A DNA stretch of 38,494 nt, taken from Thermoanaerobaculia bacterium. Lineage in GTDB: Bacteria > Acidobacteriota > Thermoanaerobaculia > Multivoradales > Multivoraceae. Below the pieces are notes generated by a model that saw only the letters and a list, made by a program, of their open reading frames with translations, had not been told where the DNA came from and ran no database searches. The stretch spans positions 1 to 38,494 of the forward strand of contig JAJDZH010000352.1 of assembly GCA_022824725.1 (NCBI GenBank). Direction: 5' to 3'. The translations under genes and the position numbers were made by a program. Positions 2,860 to 8,449 of the stretch are shown piece after piece. The stretch's first letter is position 1; each line of letters opens with the position of its first letter.

Positions 2860-3699
2860 CTACTTCGCGCCCAGAAATCCCCGCAGGCAGCGGGTCACGG
2901 CGCCGGGCGCCTCGGCCATCAGCATGTGGCCGGCGTCCGCCACGGTCACGAATCCGGCGCCGCCCCTGTTGCCTGTCGAGCTGCCGCCGCGGATGCGGTC
3001 GGCGAGGGCGCGGCCGGCCCTCGGCGGCGTCATCCTGTCCTTCGCGCCGGCGACGACGAGCGTGGGGCAGGTTATGGCCGGGGCGCTTTCGCTGCCTTCC
3101 CATTCGTTGCAGGCGGCGAAGTCGCGGTGGAGCACTTCCGGCAGGCAGCGGTCGAGCAGCGCCATCGTCGACCCGAGCATCCACAGTCCGGGGGCCTCGG
3201 CGCCGCCGAAGTGGGCGCCGGCGCCGTGCCCGAAGGCGGCGATGAAGCGGTGGGCGTTGAGCGGCCGTTTCAGCGTGTCCGCCAGCAACCCCGGGTTGAC
3301 CCGCAGCGTTTCGCCGGCGCCGAGCAGGGCCAGCCGGCTCAGGCGGCCGTTCATCCGGCTCGCCGCGTCGACGGCGATGCAGGCGCCCATCGAGTGGCCG
3401 ACGAGCGCGATGTCCTTGCTGCCCGCTCGCGCCGCGGCCGCTGCCGCGAAGTCGACGGTCCAGGCGGCGTAGTCCCCGATCGTCGTGATGGCGTCCAGGT
3501 CCTCGGACGCGCCGTGACCGGGCAGGTCGGGAGCGGCGACGTTCCAGCCGTGTTGAGCCAGCGACCGGGCCTGCAGCGCCCATACGGTGTGGTCGCTGCC
3601 GGCGCCGTGGAGCAGCAGGGCCAGGGGAAGTCCCTCCTGCCAGGCGGAGCCGCCGGTGCCGCAGTACGCCTTGCGGCCCTGGATCTCGAGTTCGGTCAT
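2860..3699 (-). CDS. Alpha/beta-fold hydrolase
   Basis: A 279-residue protein with the alpha/beta hydrolase layout. It has an oxyanion segment LLLHGAGSDHTVW at about 28-40, a PDLPGHGAS strand-turn, the nucleophile elbow GHSMG with Ser103, and a late histidine in DAGHMLMAEAPG near residue 257. The substrate cannot be read from the sequence; esterase, lactonase or acyl-transfer roles are all possible. It lies 28 bases downstream of metY on the same strand, so the two are probably co-transcribed. MetX-type homoserine acetyltransferases share this fold, but this protein is shorter than MetX and lacks recognisable MetX landmarks, so I do not assign that function. Its stop codon abuts the stop of the vWA gene. 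Confidence 0.82.
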   Translation of the reverse strand: MTELEIQGRKAYCGTGGSAWQEGLPLALLLHGAGSDHTVWALQARSLAQHGWNVAAPDLPGHGASEDLDAITTIGDYAAWTVDFAAAAAARAGSKDIALVGHSMGACIAVDAASRMNGRLSRLALLGAGETLRVNPGLLADTLKRPLNAHRFIAAFGHGAGAHFGGAEAPGLWMLGSTMALLDRCLPEVLHRDFAACNEWEGSESAPAITCPTLVVAGAKDRMTPPRAGRALADRIRGGSSTGNRGGAGFVTVADAGHMLMAEAPGAVTRCLRGFLGAK

Positions 3700-3727: not shown

Positions 3728-5050
3728 TCAGGAGGCCACCGCCCGCGGCCGCTGAGCCCGCCTATGGGAGCGCTTGAGCGCCCGGTCGAGGTCGGCTGTG
3801 AGGTCGGCTGGATCCTCGAGGCCGACCGACAGCCGCACCATCTCCTGGGTGACGCCAGATTCGGCGAGCTCTTCGGCGGTCATCTGCTGGTGCGTCGTGC
3901 TCGCCGGGTGAATGACCAGGCTCTTCGCGTCGCCGACGTTGGCGAGGTGCGACCAGAGCTCCAGGCTCTCGATGAAGGCGATCCCCGCCTCGAGTCCGCC
4001 GCGAATCCCGAAGGTCAAGAGGGCGCCGCTGCCGTTCGGCAGCAGCTTGCGGGCGAGTTCGTGCTGCGGGTGGCTGGGCAGGTCGGGGTAGCTCACCCAC
4101 TCGACCGCCTCGTGCTGCTCCAGGAACCCGGCGACCGCCCGCGCGTTCTCCACGTGGCGGGCGACCCGGAGCGGCAGGGTCTCCAGGCCCTGAATCAGGT
4201 AGAAGGCGGCCTGCGGGTTCAGGCAGGCGCCGAAGTCGCGCAGTCCTTCGAGCCTTGCCTTGAGGATGAAGGCCGGCGGGCCGTAGTGCTCGGCGAAGGC
4301 GATGCCGTGGTAGCCCGGGCAGGGCTCGGTCATGATCGGGAAGCGCCCGGAAGCGGCCCAGTCGAACTTGCCGCTGTCGACCAGGACGCCGCCCAGGGTG
4401 ACGCCGTGGCCACCAATGAACTTGGTCGCCGAGTGCATCACGATGTCCGCGCCGAGATCGATCGGCCTCGACAGGAACGGCGTGCCGAACGTGTTGTCGA
4501 TCAGCAGCGGTACGCCGATCTCGTGGGCGATCGTGGCGACGGCGGGGATGTCCAGCACGTCGATCCGCGGGTTGCCGATCGTCTCGCCGAAGAACAGCTT
4601 GGTGTTCGGACGGGCGGCTCGCCGGAAGTTCGCGGGCTCGGTCGGTTCGACGAACGTCGTTTCGATGCCGAAGCGGCGCAGCGTGTGGTTCAGCAGGTTG
4701 TGCGTACCGCCGTAGATGGCCGCCGAGGAGACGACGTGGTCGCCGGCGGAAAGGATCGTCGCCGCGGCGAGGTGGAACGCGGACTGCCCGGAAGCGGTGG
4801 CCACCGCGCCGACGCCGCCTTCGAGCGCGGCAATCCGCTCCTCGAACACCGCCACCGTCGGGTTGGAGATCCGCGAGTAGATGTGCCCCGCCTCTTCCAG
4901 GTTGAACAGTCCGGCGGCGTGGTCCGTGTCCCGGAACACGTAAGACGTCGAGTTGTAGACCGGCACGGCGCGCGCTCCCGTGGCCGGGTCGGGCCGCTGG
5001 CCGGCGTGAAGGGACAGGGTGTCGAACTTGTAGAACCAGTCGCTGCTCAT
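3728..5050 (-). CDS. metY: O-acetylhomoserine sulfhydrylase / Cys-Met metabolism PLP enzyme
   Basis: A 440-residue PLP-dependent enzyme of the Cys/Met family. An N-terminal TLSLHAGQ motif is followed by YSRISNPTVAVFEERIA, the cofactor-binding region, and the PLP lysine in HSATKFIGGHG. Length and the LHAGQ start fit O-acetylhomoserine aminocarboxypropyltransferase, which makes homocysteine directly from O-acetylhomoserine and sulfide. Cystathionine gamma-synthases are usually about 50 residues shorter. The ATG at 5050 begins right before the conserved WFYKFDTLSLHAGQ start. No Shine-Dalgarno is visible, and a TACACT hexamer sits exactly six bases upstream, suggesting a leaderless mRNA. The divergent neighbour is a homocysteine S-methyltransferase, so the pair could carry out the last two steps of methionine synthesis. 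Confidence 0.92.
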   Translation of the reverse strand: MSSDWFYKFDTLSLHAGQRPDPATGARAVPVYNSTSYVFRDTDHAAGLFNLEEAGHIYSRISNPTVAVFEERIAALEGGVGAVATASGQSAFHLAAATILSAGDHVVSSAAIYGGTHNLLNHTLRRFGIETTFVEPTEPANFRRAARPNTKLFFGETIGNPRIDVLDIPAVATIAHEIGVPLLIDNTFGTPFLSRPIDLGADIVMHSATKFIGGHGVTLGGVLVDSGKFDWAASGRFPIMTEPCPGYHGIAFAEHYGPPAFILKARLEGLRDFGACLNPQAAFYLIQGLETLPLRVARHVENARAVAGFLEQHEAVEWVSYPDLPSHPQHELARKLLPNGSGALLTFGIRGGLEAGIAFIESLELWSHLANVGDAKSLVIHPASTTHQQMTAEELAESGVTQEMVRLSVGLEDPADLTADLDRALKRSHRRAQRPRAVAS

Positions 5051-5062: not shown

Positions 5063-5117
5063 GCTGTAGCGGCGGCGCGGGCTGACCTGTGGCAGAGTGG
5101 CGTCCCGAGGAGGCCGG

Positions 5118-6032
5118 ATGGGAATCGTCGAAGAGTGGCACGAATGCCTGGACCGGGGGGAGATCCTGCTGCTCGATGGCGGCACCGGGACGGAGCTGGA
5201 GCGGCGAGGGGTGCCGATGGACACGGCCGCGTGGTGCGGGACGGCGGCGCTGGAGCACCAGGACGCAATCCGGGATCTGCACGAGGAGTACATCCGTTGC
5301 GGCGCGGATGCGATCATCACGAACACGTTCGCGACGCACCGCCCGTTGCTTGAGGCCGCGGGTCTGGGCGACCAGGTCGCGGTGATCGTGCGGCGGGCGG
5401 TGGAGGCTGCGCTCGAGGCCCGCGATCGGGCCGGATGCCCGGGCGTGCTCGTGGCGGGATCGATGTCGAGCATGCCGGCGAACAACATCCAGGGCGGCTA
5501 CCCGTCGGCCGGCGAGCAGATGGCGGCCTATCGGGAGCAGTGCGGGCTTCTGGCCGAGGCCGGAGTCGACGTGATCGCGCTCGAGATGATGCAGTTCCAC
5601 GAGCGTGCCCTGCTTGCCTTCAGGGCAGCGAAGGAGACGGGTTTGCCGGTTTGGCTCGGGGTCAGCGCCCGAAAGGACCCGGAAACCGGTGCGATCACGC
5701 CCTTCAACTGGCCTGACGAGTCCTTCGAGGAGTTGCTCGACACGCTGATCCCGCTCGGTCCCTCGATCGTGCACGTGATGCACAGCGAGATCGCCGCGGT
5801 GCCGGAAGCGGTAGCGATGGTCCAGGAGCGCTGGGACGGCCCCGTCGGCGTCTACCCGGAGTCGGGTTACTTCACGATGCCGAACTGGAACTTCGTCGAC
5901 GTGATCGAGCCGGCCGATCTGCTGGAGGAGGCGCGCGGCTGGGTGGCCGCGGGCGTTCAGATCGTCGGCGGCTGCTGCGGTTTGGGGCCGGAACACATCC
6001 GAGCCCTGGGAGCGCTTCGCGGATCCGGCTGA
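5118..6032 (+). CDS. Homocysteine S-methyltransferase family protein
   Basis: A 304-residue TIM-barrel enzyme of the homocysteine S-methyltransferase (Pfam S-methyl_trans) family. It starts with ILLLDGGTGTELERRG and ends with the zinc-binding GGCCG motif (Cys286, Cys287). The family transfers a methyl group from S-methylmethionine, betaine or a related donor to homocysteine, forming methionine. I chose ATG 5118 over the upstream in-frame GTG at 5097 because GAGGAGG lies at a good distance from it. The third zinc ligand, normally a cysteine in an INC-like segment about 65 residues earlier, is not found. That position reads VHVMHSE (217-224), so His222 or His219 may replace it. The donor substrate is unknown. 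The gene is divergent from metY, and the TPR-sulfatase follows after 47 bases. Confidence 0.88.
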   Translation: MGIVEEWHECLDRGEILLLDGGTGTELERRGVPMDTAAWCGTAALEHQDAIRDLHEEYIRCGADAIITNTFATHRPLLEAAGLGDQVAVIVRRAVEAALEARDRAGCPGVLVAGSMSSMPANNIQGGYPSAGEQMAAYREQCGLLAEAGVDVIALEMMQFHERALLAFRAAKETGLPVWLGVSARKDPETGAITPFNWPDESFEELLDTLIPLGPSIVHVMHSEIAAVPEAVAMVQERWDGPVGVYPESGYFTMPNWNFVDVIEPADLLEEARGWVAAGVQIVGGCCGLGPEHIRALGALRGSG

Positions 6033-6079
6033 GGAGGCCGGAACGATCGTGACAGCGGGCGGCGAACCGGATCGGGACG

Positions 6080-8449
6080 ATGCGAAGCGCGTCCGGCGCT
6101 GGTTGTAGCGCGGCCCGCCAGGTCCTTGTGCCGGCCTCGATGCTGGCGTTGGTCCTTGCCGCCTGCGGACCCGGGCCGGAGGACGCGGCGCCATCGTCGG
6201 TCCGGGCGGACGTGGAGCACCTGCTCAGTGGCGCGTCGACCGCGCGGCCGCCCGTCATCCTGATCACGATCGACACCCTGCGTGCCGATCGGCTGTCGAG
6301 CTACGGCTCGGATCGGGTCGCGACGCCGCACATGGACCGTCTGGCGGCGGAGGGCATTCGCTTCGCCAACGCGTCGTCGACCGTGCCGTTCACGTTGCCT
6401 GCGCACAGCTCGATCATGACGGGGCTCTACCCGCCGTCCCATGGGGTGCGCGAGAACGTCGGCTACGTGCTGGCGCCCGAACTGGTGACGATCGCCGAGC
6501 GGTTCCAGGATGCCGGCTACCGGACCGGCGGTTTCGTCAGCGCCTTCGTGCTCGATGCGCGCTGGGGCATCGCCCGCGGCTTCGACCACTACGTCGACGA
6601 CTTCGACCTCGACGCGATGGCGGGCGCCAACCTGGGCTCGGTCCAGCGGGCGGGGCCGGAGACGATCGCGCACGCGCTCACGTGGCTCGATGACGTGGGA
6701 GACGAGGGGCCGTTCTTCCTCTGGCTCCACCTGTTCGATCCCCACGATCCGTATGACCCGCCGGAACCGTTCCGGTCCGGGTACCAGGGCCGGCCCTACG
6801 ACGGCGAGGTCGCCTACACGGATTCGCTGGTCGGCGAGTTCCGCGCCGCCCTCGAGGAGCGCGGTCTCTTCGATGAATCCGTCCTCGTGCTGACGTCGGA
6901 CCACGGCGAGGGACTGGGCGACCACGGCGAGAGCTACCACGGCTTCTTCGTCTACGACTCCACCGTCCACGTGCCGCTCATCGTCCGGCTGCCCGGCGGC
7001 ACGGAGCGCGGCCGGGTGGTCGGCGACGCGGTGAGCCACGTCGACATCGCGCCGACCCTGATCGAGCTTCTGGACCTCGACGGGGCTGGAGAAGGCCAGG
7101 GCCGGAGTCTGCTCCCGGACATGCAGGGACTGCCGAATCCTCTTGCCGAACGGAGCGTGTACGCCGAGTCCTTCTACGCGCTCGACCACTACGGCTGGGC
7201 GCCGCTTCGCTCGCTGCGCACGGCGGAGCACAAGTACATCGAAGCGCCGGAACCCGAACTCTACGCCCTGCTCGAAGACCCGGGCGAGCTAGCGAACGTC
7301 CTGCTCGAAGAGCGCGACCTGTCGCGCCGGCTGCGGGCGGAGGCTCTCGAACTCTCGGCGGAGCTCGATCGGGCGGCCCCGAGTTCCAGCGCGGAACCGG
7401 ATCTCGACGAGGACACGCTGGCGCAGTTGCGAGCGCTCGGTTACCTCGCCGGCCGCGGCGCCGCCGGCCGGGGGGATTCCGAAAGCCCGCGCGCCGACCC
7501 GAAGGACAAGGCCCACCTGCATCGCGCCATCATGCGGGCGCAGAGCGCCTTCGGCGCCGGCGACGAGGACGCGGCCGCGGCCGAGCTGCGAGCGGCGCTG
7601 TCCGAGGACGATGGGCTGCTCGACGCGCACCAGCTCCTGGGCACGATCACGCTTCTCGCGGGCGATCCGGAACAGGCGTCAGGCCACTTCCAGAGCGCGC
7701 TGGCCCTCGATTCCGAGCACCGGCAGTCCCTGCTTGGCCTCGCCAACGCCTACCGCGAACTGGGACGCATCGACGAGGCGGTGGTCGGCTACCGCCGGCT
7801 GCTCGAAGTCGCGGGTCAGGACGCGAAGGCGACGATGGCGCTGGCGCGAATCCACGTCGACCGCGGCGAGCTGAGCGAAGCGGAGCAGGTGCTGACGGCC
7901 GCCGCCGAAGGGCGCGAGCCGCCCGCGGTCGTCACGAACAAGCTGGGCGAGGTGATGGCGCTCCTCGGCCGTAGCGGCGACGCGGAGGCGAAGTTCCGGG
8001 AGGTCATCTCATCGAACCCGGAACTCGGCGAGGCCCACTTCAACCTGGCCGTTCTGCTGGATGAGTCGGGGAGGATGGAGGACGCGGTCACCGCCTACCG
8101 GCAGGCGGAGGAACTGCGCCCGCGCGACCATCGGCCCCGGTTCAATCTGGGCCGGCTCTACGGCCGGCAGGGCCGCGCGGACCTCCAGATCGAGGCCTAC
8201 CGCGGCGCGGTCGAGGCGGCGCCGGACTTCACCGTCGGCTACTTCCACCTGGCGAAGGCGTTGATGGACCACGGGCGGGATCTCGAAGAAGCGGAGACGT
8301 TCGTGCGCCGCGGTCTGGAGGACGAGCCGACCGGTCGGGACGGCGCGCTCGGCTACTTCGTGCTCGCCGACATCCTGAACCGGCTGGGGCGGCCGGCCGA
8401 GGAGCGGCAGGCACTGGCCCGCGGACAGGAACTTCTCGACCGCCGCTGA
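6080..8449 (+). CDS. Lipoprotein sulfatase-like hydrolase with C-terminal TPR repeats
   Basis: A 789-residue protein. The N-terminus has a hydrophobic segment ending in a lipobox (LVLAAC), predicting a lipid-anchored exported protein. Residues about 57-400 form an alkaline-phosphatase/sulfatase superfamily domain. Metal ligands include Asp65 in ITIDTLRAD and Asp274-His275 in TSDHGEGLGDHGE. The nucleophile position reads FTLPAHSS, so Thr105 stands where classic sulfatases have a formylglycine Cys/Ser in CxPxR. Residues about 470-789 are helical tetratricopeptide repeats. The family could cleave sulfate or phosphate esters or transfer phospho-groups; with Thr, true sulfatase activity is doubtful. 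It follows the methyltransferase gene closely but shares no obvious pathway with it. It is convergent with the next hydrolase across 9 bases. Confidence 0.88.
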   Translation: MRSASGAGCSAARQVLVPASMLALVLAACGPGPEDAAPSSVRADVEHLLSGASTARPPVILITIDTLRADRLSSYGSDRVATPHMDRLAAEGIRFANASSTVPFTLPAHSSIMTGLYPPSHGVRENVGYVLAPELVTIAERFQDAGYRTGGFVSAFVLDARWGIARGFDHYVDDFDLDAMAGANLGSVQRAGPETIAHALTWLDDVGDEGPFFLWLHLFDPHDPYDPPEPFRSGYQGRPYDGEVAYTDSLVGEFRAALEERGLFDESVLVLTSDHGEGLGDHGESYHGFFVYDSTVHVPLIVRLPGGTERGRVVGDAVSHVDIAPTLIELLDLDGAGEGQGRSLLPDMQGLPNPLAERSVYAESFYALDHYGWAPLRSLRTAEHKYIEAPEPELYALLEDPGELANVLLEERDLSRRLRAEALELSAELDRAAPSSSAEPDLDEDTLAQLRALGYLAGRGAAGRGDSESPRADPKDKAHLHRAIMRAQSAFGAGDEDAAAAELRAALSEDDGLLDAHQLLGTITLLAGDPEQASGHFQSALALDSEHRQSLLGLANAYRELGRIDEAVVGYRRLLEVAGQDAKATMALARIHVDRGELSEAEQVLTAAAEGREPPAVVTNKLGEVMALLGRSGDAEAKFREVISSNPELGEAHFNLAVLLDESGRMEDAVTAYRQAEELRPRDHRPRFNLGRLYGRQGRADLQIEAYRGAVEAAPDFTVGYFHLAKALMDHGRDLEEAETFVRRGLEDEPTGRDGALGYFVLADILNRLGRPAEERQALARGQELLDRR

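Follow-up and report, generated by a model that had tools for sequence, protein, structure and literature searches.

The zinc ligands of the homocysteine methyltransferases MetH and BHMT are described as three cysteines. In MetH, the first is found at the end of strand 6 and the remaining pair after strand 8 (PMC539065). In BHMT they are Cys217, Cys299 and Cys300, and a disulfide between Cys217 and Cys299 ejects the zinc (PMC4101490); Tyr77 is given as a fourth zinc ligand (PMC7996840). MetE has a different set, namely His, Cys, Glu and Cys, in which the distance between zinc and Glu grows on binding of homocysteine (PMC539065). In the MesC proteins, which belong to the MetE family, one zinc cysteine is in most cases replaced by His (PMC7857596). 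No report of a His-type enzyme of the PF02574 family was found in the open-licence literature, which is not proof of novelty.

The DNA analysed here (the window) is a stretch of 38,494 nucleotides from a Thermoanaerobaculia bacterium. It carries a PF02574 gene whose product has Met-His in place of the Asn-Cys pair that normally provides the first zinc cysteine, and we refer to such genes and proteins as MH. In some Acidobacteriota, MH is a probable enzyme of methionine formation, with His at one zinc-cysteine position and a change at a second metal-site position as well. The features of the locus are collected in Table 1.

Table 1. Features of the MH locus, in positions of the window
Feature	Position	Strand	Remarks
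Alpha/beta-hydrolase	2860..3699	-	Pfam; same strand as metY
metY, O-acetylhomoserine sulfhydrylase (homocysteine synthase)	3728..5050	-	NF006004, 729.1 bits, cut-off 636; divergent from MH
GAGGAGG, possible ribosome site ahead of ATG 5118	5107..5113	+	From sequence
MH gene, PF02574 homocysteine S-methyltransferase, Met-His replacing Asn-Cys	5118..6032	+	304 residues; Pfam, numbering, fold model
Trp39	5232..5234	+	Common to stand-alone MmuM-like rows, not in MetH-like rows
Glu156-Met157	5583..5588	+	Column of the otherwise usual Glu-Thr
Met221-His222-Ser223-Glu224	5778..5789	+	His222 in place of the first zinc Cys
Glu248	5859..5861	+	Last residue of predicted strand 7; usual residue is Asn
Cys286-Cys287, retained zinc cysteines	5973..5978	+	After strand 8

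Metal-site residues and predicted fold

The reading frame of the MH gene runs from 5097 to 6032 on the forward strand, and its likely start is the ATG at 5118, which gives the same residue numbering as in the original prediction. The protein matches the Pfam family S-methyl_trans (PF02574) with 170.4 bits, against a cut-off of 22, over positions 1–279 of the 283 in the profile. This is its sole Pfam family, with no match to PF01717 (the MetE catalytic domain), and the protein stands alone, without a folate or cobalamin domain. It falls below the cut-off of each of the NCBIfam equivalogs for MmuM, BHMT and the bifunctional enzyme fused to MTHFR (NF007020, 127.3 of 215 bits; NF005718, 86.8 of 338; NF006396, 135.9 of 453). 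MH is inside the superfamily by profile and fold, and outside it by the three-cysteine signature. A riboswitch was also sought, and no Rfam match at the gathering score was found in the window, nor was any tRNA; besides the window, structure alignment A4 comprised 12 of the 18 loci from the genus and 10 of the 15 from viral contigs.

The original prediction was that the first zinc cysteine is absent and that the later pair is intact, and both points are borne out. The three-cysteine zinc pattern, with a single residue in strand 6 and two after strand 8, is broken at its first position. In MAFFT alignments with relatives at 26–55% identity, the column of the first cysteine is occupied by His222 (5781–5783, within VHVMHSE at 5769–5789), and alignment of solved MetH chains with a profile built from seven MH proteins places Met-His over Asn-Cys and Pro-Glu-Ser-Gly over Pro-Asn-Ala-Gly. 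The seven cysteines of the window protein were all checked (residues 10, 40, 61, 107, 142, 286 and 287), and none is a substitute near residue 222. Misalignment or a displaced cysteine was considered, and finds no support in the MAFFT and profile alignments and the predicted strand placement. The Cys286/Cys287 pair (GGCC, 5967–5978) is present in all 17 codon-aligned copies from the genus of the window, as are His222 and Glu248. The prediction had named either His222 or His219 (5772–5774) as the replacement ligand; the former stands, but the latter is to be set aside, as the MH relatives from other genera have N, T or S in its column.

Three further changes had been missed, all in columns that are nearly invariant in the Cys-type relatives: Glu248 (or His) for the Asn of strand 7, and two that are clade-wide, namely Asn to Met before His222 and, following Glu156, Thr to Met. 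Eight reference proteins of the Asn-Cys type show no variation in the Asn-Cys pair, the Asn of strand 7, Glu-Thr or GGCC; in these places MH rows have Met-His, either Glu or His, Glu-Met and GGCC, respectively. His222, Glu156 and GGCC are invariant in seven MH proteins that are 48–55% identical to the window protein.

The motifs VHVMH[ST]E, YPESG and GGCC are found in that order in 38 of the 39 genus loci tested, a set in which the window gene is counted twice and two collections supplied copies of several species. The exception, L020, is a sequence that stops ahead of GGCC, in which MHSE is visible in the alignment. The genus copies are under purifying selection, with a median dN/dS of 0.09 (Nei-Gojobori, 17 sequences, 136 pairs). 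An assembly error or a pseudogene in the window was also considered, and is not supported in view of the intact motifs of these 38 loci and the low dN/dS.

The structure predicted for the window protein has a mean pLDDT of 91.6, and the ten-residue blocks bearing the site have values of 92, 92 and 94. The model, which counts from residue 2, contains seven strands of at least three residues. In it, His222 is placed within predicted strand 6, two residues short of the strand end, and Cys286 and Cys287 come three residues past a predicted two-residue strand, which is taken as strand 8. This predicted placement matches that of the zinc cysteines of MetH, which supports the metal site proposed below. 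Together with the alignment column, the position in predicted strand 6 agrees with the earlier suggestion that His222 is rightly placed for a Cys2His site. The best fold match is MetH from T. maritima with zinc and homocysteine (3bof_B; Z 36.0, rmsd 2.4, 280 residues aligned), followed by MmuM (5dmm, Z 33.7) and BHMT (1lt8, Z 33.3). The listed entries for MetH, MmuM and BHMT span Z values of 28.8–36.0, and the first row outside the family is at 17.5.

A single clade and its distribution

The family tree was made after removal of the metal-site columns (residues 156–158, 218–226, 245–251 and 284–288). It has 44 rows, consisting of 7 from the genus, 7 other MH, 4 Met-Cys (MC) and 26 Asn-Cys; outside it were the near copies from the genus, L051 (which is the same gene as L036), the fragment L057 and seven rows that resemble one another (L061–L065, L069 and L070). 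The 14 MH rows form one clade, with support of 100/99. A tree had been proposed as a way of finding whether His defines a clade, and on this tree it does. The clade is composed of the acidobacterial genus of the window and scattered members of other acidobacterial families. It is divided at position 248, which is Glu in the half containing the window and His in the other half (type 2).

The strand-7 residue co-varies with the first ligand. Site residues were typed for 71 table rows only, in which several MH genes occur twice: in the Asn-Cys rows the strand-7 residue is Asn in 40, His in 2 and Val in 1 (n = 43), in the MC rows it is Asn in 3 and Glu in 1 (a row that is unsure, with an insertion), and in the Met-His rows it is Glu in 18 and His in 6, with Asn in 0 of 24. 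Since MH is one clade, this co-variation amounts to one or two events and not many.

The four MC proteins (L041, L042, L043 and L049, PF02574) have Met-Cys for Asn-Cys and Glu-Tyr for Glu-Thr, and form one clade on both trees. A path from Asn-Cys through Met-Cys to Met-His was considered and dropped: the sister relation of MC to MH, with support of 90/82, is confined to a tree that retains the His222 columns (the Glu248 columns being removed), and MC falls in an unresolved fork once the metal-site columns are removed. MH forms one clade on either tree.

Genome searches for the clade were confined to Acidobacteriota. Among 148 genomes of the window's class, the MH gene is present in 21 genomes of the genus, including that of the window (in one it is cut by a contig end), and there is no genus genome among the non-matches listed, which start with other genera of the family. 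A genome from the same order (G577) has an MH relative at 51% identity. Three genomes from other genera of the window's own family (G152, G590 and G597) gave no match at 1e-30, which makes the distribution of MH patchy. In the class of G077, full-length MH is found in six of 193 genomes (G077, G527, G515, G408, G422 and G531), and Met-His is present in all six copies and in G577. A genome congeneric with G077 contains an MH remnant (L057, G533:C42:16688-16912), in which roughly the last 75 residues are in frame, with stops upstream.

A scan with the window MH as a single-protein query gave 18 loci, which are close relatives only. They are metagenome-assembled and labelled Thermoanaerobaculia, Holophagales, Vicinamibacteraceae, Acidobacteria or Candidatus Multivorans thiocomprendens, names from which we guess that the genus presumably lives in sponges. 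Of 396 sampled genomes of the phylum, 16 (15 from the genus, and G077) matched a DNA pattern encoding Met-His-[Ser/Thr-like]-Glu together with GGCC, and 2 of 396 matched the backward control of this pattern. Plasmid searches with MH gave 25 and 632 records, all at less than 60% identity, of which eight regions were typed and all were Asn-Cys.

Neighbouring genes and other methionine-synthesis genes

The divergent arrangement of metY and the hydrolase beside MH occurs in all 18 genus loci (with a partial metY match in L020). In G077, metY, the alpha/beta-hydrolase and MH are on one strand, with MH last and gaps of 3 bases when taken as longest frames, and metY scores 792 bits against the equivalog cut-off of 636. 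The position of metY next to MH, both in the genus and in G077, points to homocysteine as the substrate. In G527 and G515, the convergent neighbour of MH is a transporter of the BCCT (betaine/carnitine/choline) family, which together with Trp39 favours, but does not prove, a small onium donor. No corrinoid carrier gene was found beside MH among the chosen subset of neighbours scanned, and no mmuP or known betaine gene was seen beside it in the window.

The MH neighbourhoods of G527 (L072, 5007-11195) and G515 (L073, 7396-13322) have in common a UGSC-family protein, a nickel-dependent lactate-racemase-like LarA and the BCCT transporter. All three type 2 MH genes (L075, L076 and L085) adjoin a DUF1326 protein whose start is rich in Cys, and also a PpoB2 protein, described by Pfam as a copper chaperone. 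On the other side of MH, a PEMT-like gene (phospholipid methyltransferase family) lies between MH and a sulfatase-TPR gene in 15 of the 17 genus loci that could be evaluated. Only its two ends are present in the window (6033-6105), and the middle is missing (compare L003, 6953-7432), which is either a real loss or an effect of assembly. The next gene in the window (6080-8449, forward strand) encodes a sulfatase domain and then tetratricopeptide repeats, and is beside MH in 17 of 18 genus loci (L020 stops earlier).

The window genome contains two PF02574 genes, namely MH and a MetH-like gene that keeps Asn-Cys, together with two BCCT transporters; PF01717 has no match in it. Ten further MH genomes (three from the genus, G577 and six others) each have a separate MetH-like Asn-Cys gene of PF02574, which in G408 is a contig-edge fragment only and in G515 an incomplete match. 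Matches to PF01717 occur in one of these ten (G422). The MetH-like gene of carrier genomes keeps the three cysteines. As such a gene is present separately in every carrier checked, MH is taken to be an additional enzyme, and it perhaps needs no cobalamin.

A proposed His-Cys-Cys-Glu site

The best explanation, to which we give about an even chance, is that the window gene encodes a working stand-alone thiol methyltransferase from the barrel family of MetH, BHMT and MmuM, which converts homocysteine to methionine by means of a rebuilt His-Cys-Cys-Glu metal site. We infer the metal, the roles of the ligands, the substrate and the donor as follows. A single metal ion, most likely of zinc, would be coordinated by His222 in strand 6 and by Cys286 and Cys287 after strand 8. 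In the substrate-free enzyme, a fourth protein ligand would come from Glu248 at the end of strand 7, which would yield when the homocysteine thiol binds as a thiolate. These would be the same ligands as in MetE, arrived at independently in a different barrel and from different strands. Homocysteine would be supplied to MH by MetY next door, and a small onium compound (betaine, DMSP or S-methylmethionine) is a likelier methyl donor than methylcobalamin.

All four residues are present, at predicted strand positions that would suit a MetE-type ligand set. In substrate-free MetH, the strand-7 Asn is reportedly a zinc ligand that is displaced. If so, the changes of Cys to His and of Asn to Glu would convert the ligands of MetH into those of MetE with equal charge, the charge lost with Cys being regained with Glu so that the resting charge of the site would be kept. 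This charge argument is weakened by type 2, in which the His at position 248 would give a resting site of Cys2His2. It also counts against the explanation that the genes around MH are not the same throughout the clade (type 2 has DUF1326 and PpoB2), and that no NCBIfam equivalog cut-off is reached.

A wider claim is that the MetH/BHMT zinc site was rebuilt, in a single origin, into the MetE set of His, Cys, Cys and Glu, with a sister branch having His, Cys, Cys and His; we hold this more tentatively, at somewhat below an even chance. If it is true, the same metal chemistry would have been arrived at independently by two methionine-synthase families whose zinc sites differ, and the disulfide switch of BHMT would also be abolished by the swap.

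A rather unlikely alternative is that MH is a thiol methyltransferase for a metal or thiol other than zinc and homocysteine, since His would suit, for example, a softer or redox-active metal. The change of Thr to Met beside Glu156, which is likewise clade-wide, is in keeping with this, as is the putative copper chaperone beside MH in all three type 2 genomes. The copper link, however, is a family name and concerns type 2 only; Glu156 itself is retained, and it is the homocysteine-making metY that adjoins MH in the genus and in G077. We regard it as equally improbable that the reaction and donor are as in the relatives, and that the swap serves mainly to remove a redox switch by preventing a disulfide of the Cys217–Cys299 type. 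The zinc-ejecting disulfide described for BHMT (PMC4101490) makes such a role conceivable, and the MetH of the same genomes keeps its three cysteines, but the changes of the strand-7 Asn and of two other positions would be left unexplained. Removal of the switch can be the reason for the swap and is compatible with a rebuilt metal site. Loss or decay of the site, with another and perhaps non-catalytic role for the protein, is very unlikely: MH could be spared in the window genome and the ten other carriers with their separate MetH-like genes, and G533 holds only a broken-off remnant, but neither the invariance of His222, Glu156 and GGCC among proteins only 48–55% identical to that of the window nor the purifying selection within the genus fits a decaying site.

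The preferred reading of a rebuilt site suggests that the usual description of PF02574 may understate how changeable its metal site is. A clade that keeps the fold and has swapped both a cysteine and the strand-7 residue makes it possible to ask why the ligand sets of MetE and MetH differ, for which thiolate reactivity, resistance to oxidation and choice of methyl donor are candidate reasons, and the Cys-type relatives are ready comparison proteins. A caution also follows for annotation: one missing zinc cysteine is no ground for calling such genes inactive.

Among known systems, MH is like the homocysteine domain of MetH (T. maritima, 3bof) in its fold, in having GGCC after strand 8 and in the strand-6 location of the first-ligand column. 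It differs at the Asn-Cys pair (Met-His in MH), at the Asn of strand 7 (Glu) and at Glu-Thr (Glu-Met), and in the lack of folate and cobalamin domains. With MmuM it shares a stand-alone barrel of similar length and Trp39, and its fold resembles those of both MmuM and BHMT (Z 33.7 and 33.3), whereas it has neither their three-cysteine site nor a score above their equivalog cut-offs. The MC proteins have the same Met for Asn before the ligand position, but unlike MH they keep the ligand Cys. The ligand set proposed from the sequence, namely His, Cys, Cys and Glu, would be like that of MetE, although MetE and MesA-D belong to a different Pfam family (PF01717) and the ligands come from different strands: 5, 6 and 8 in MetE (PMC539065), and 6, 7 and 8 in the site proposed for MH.
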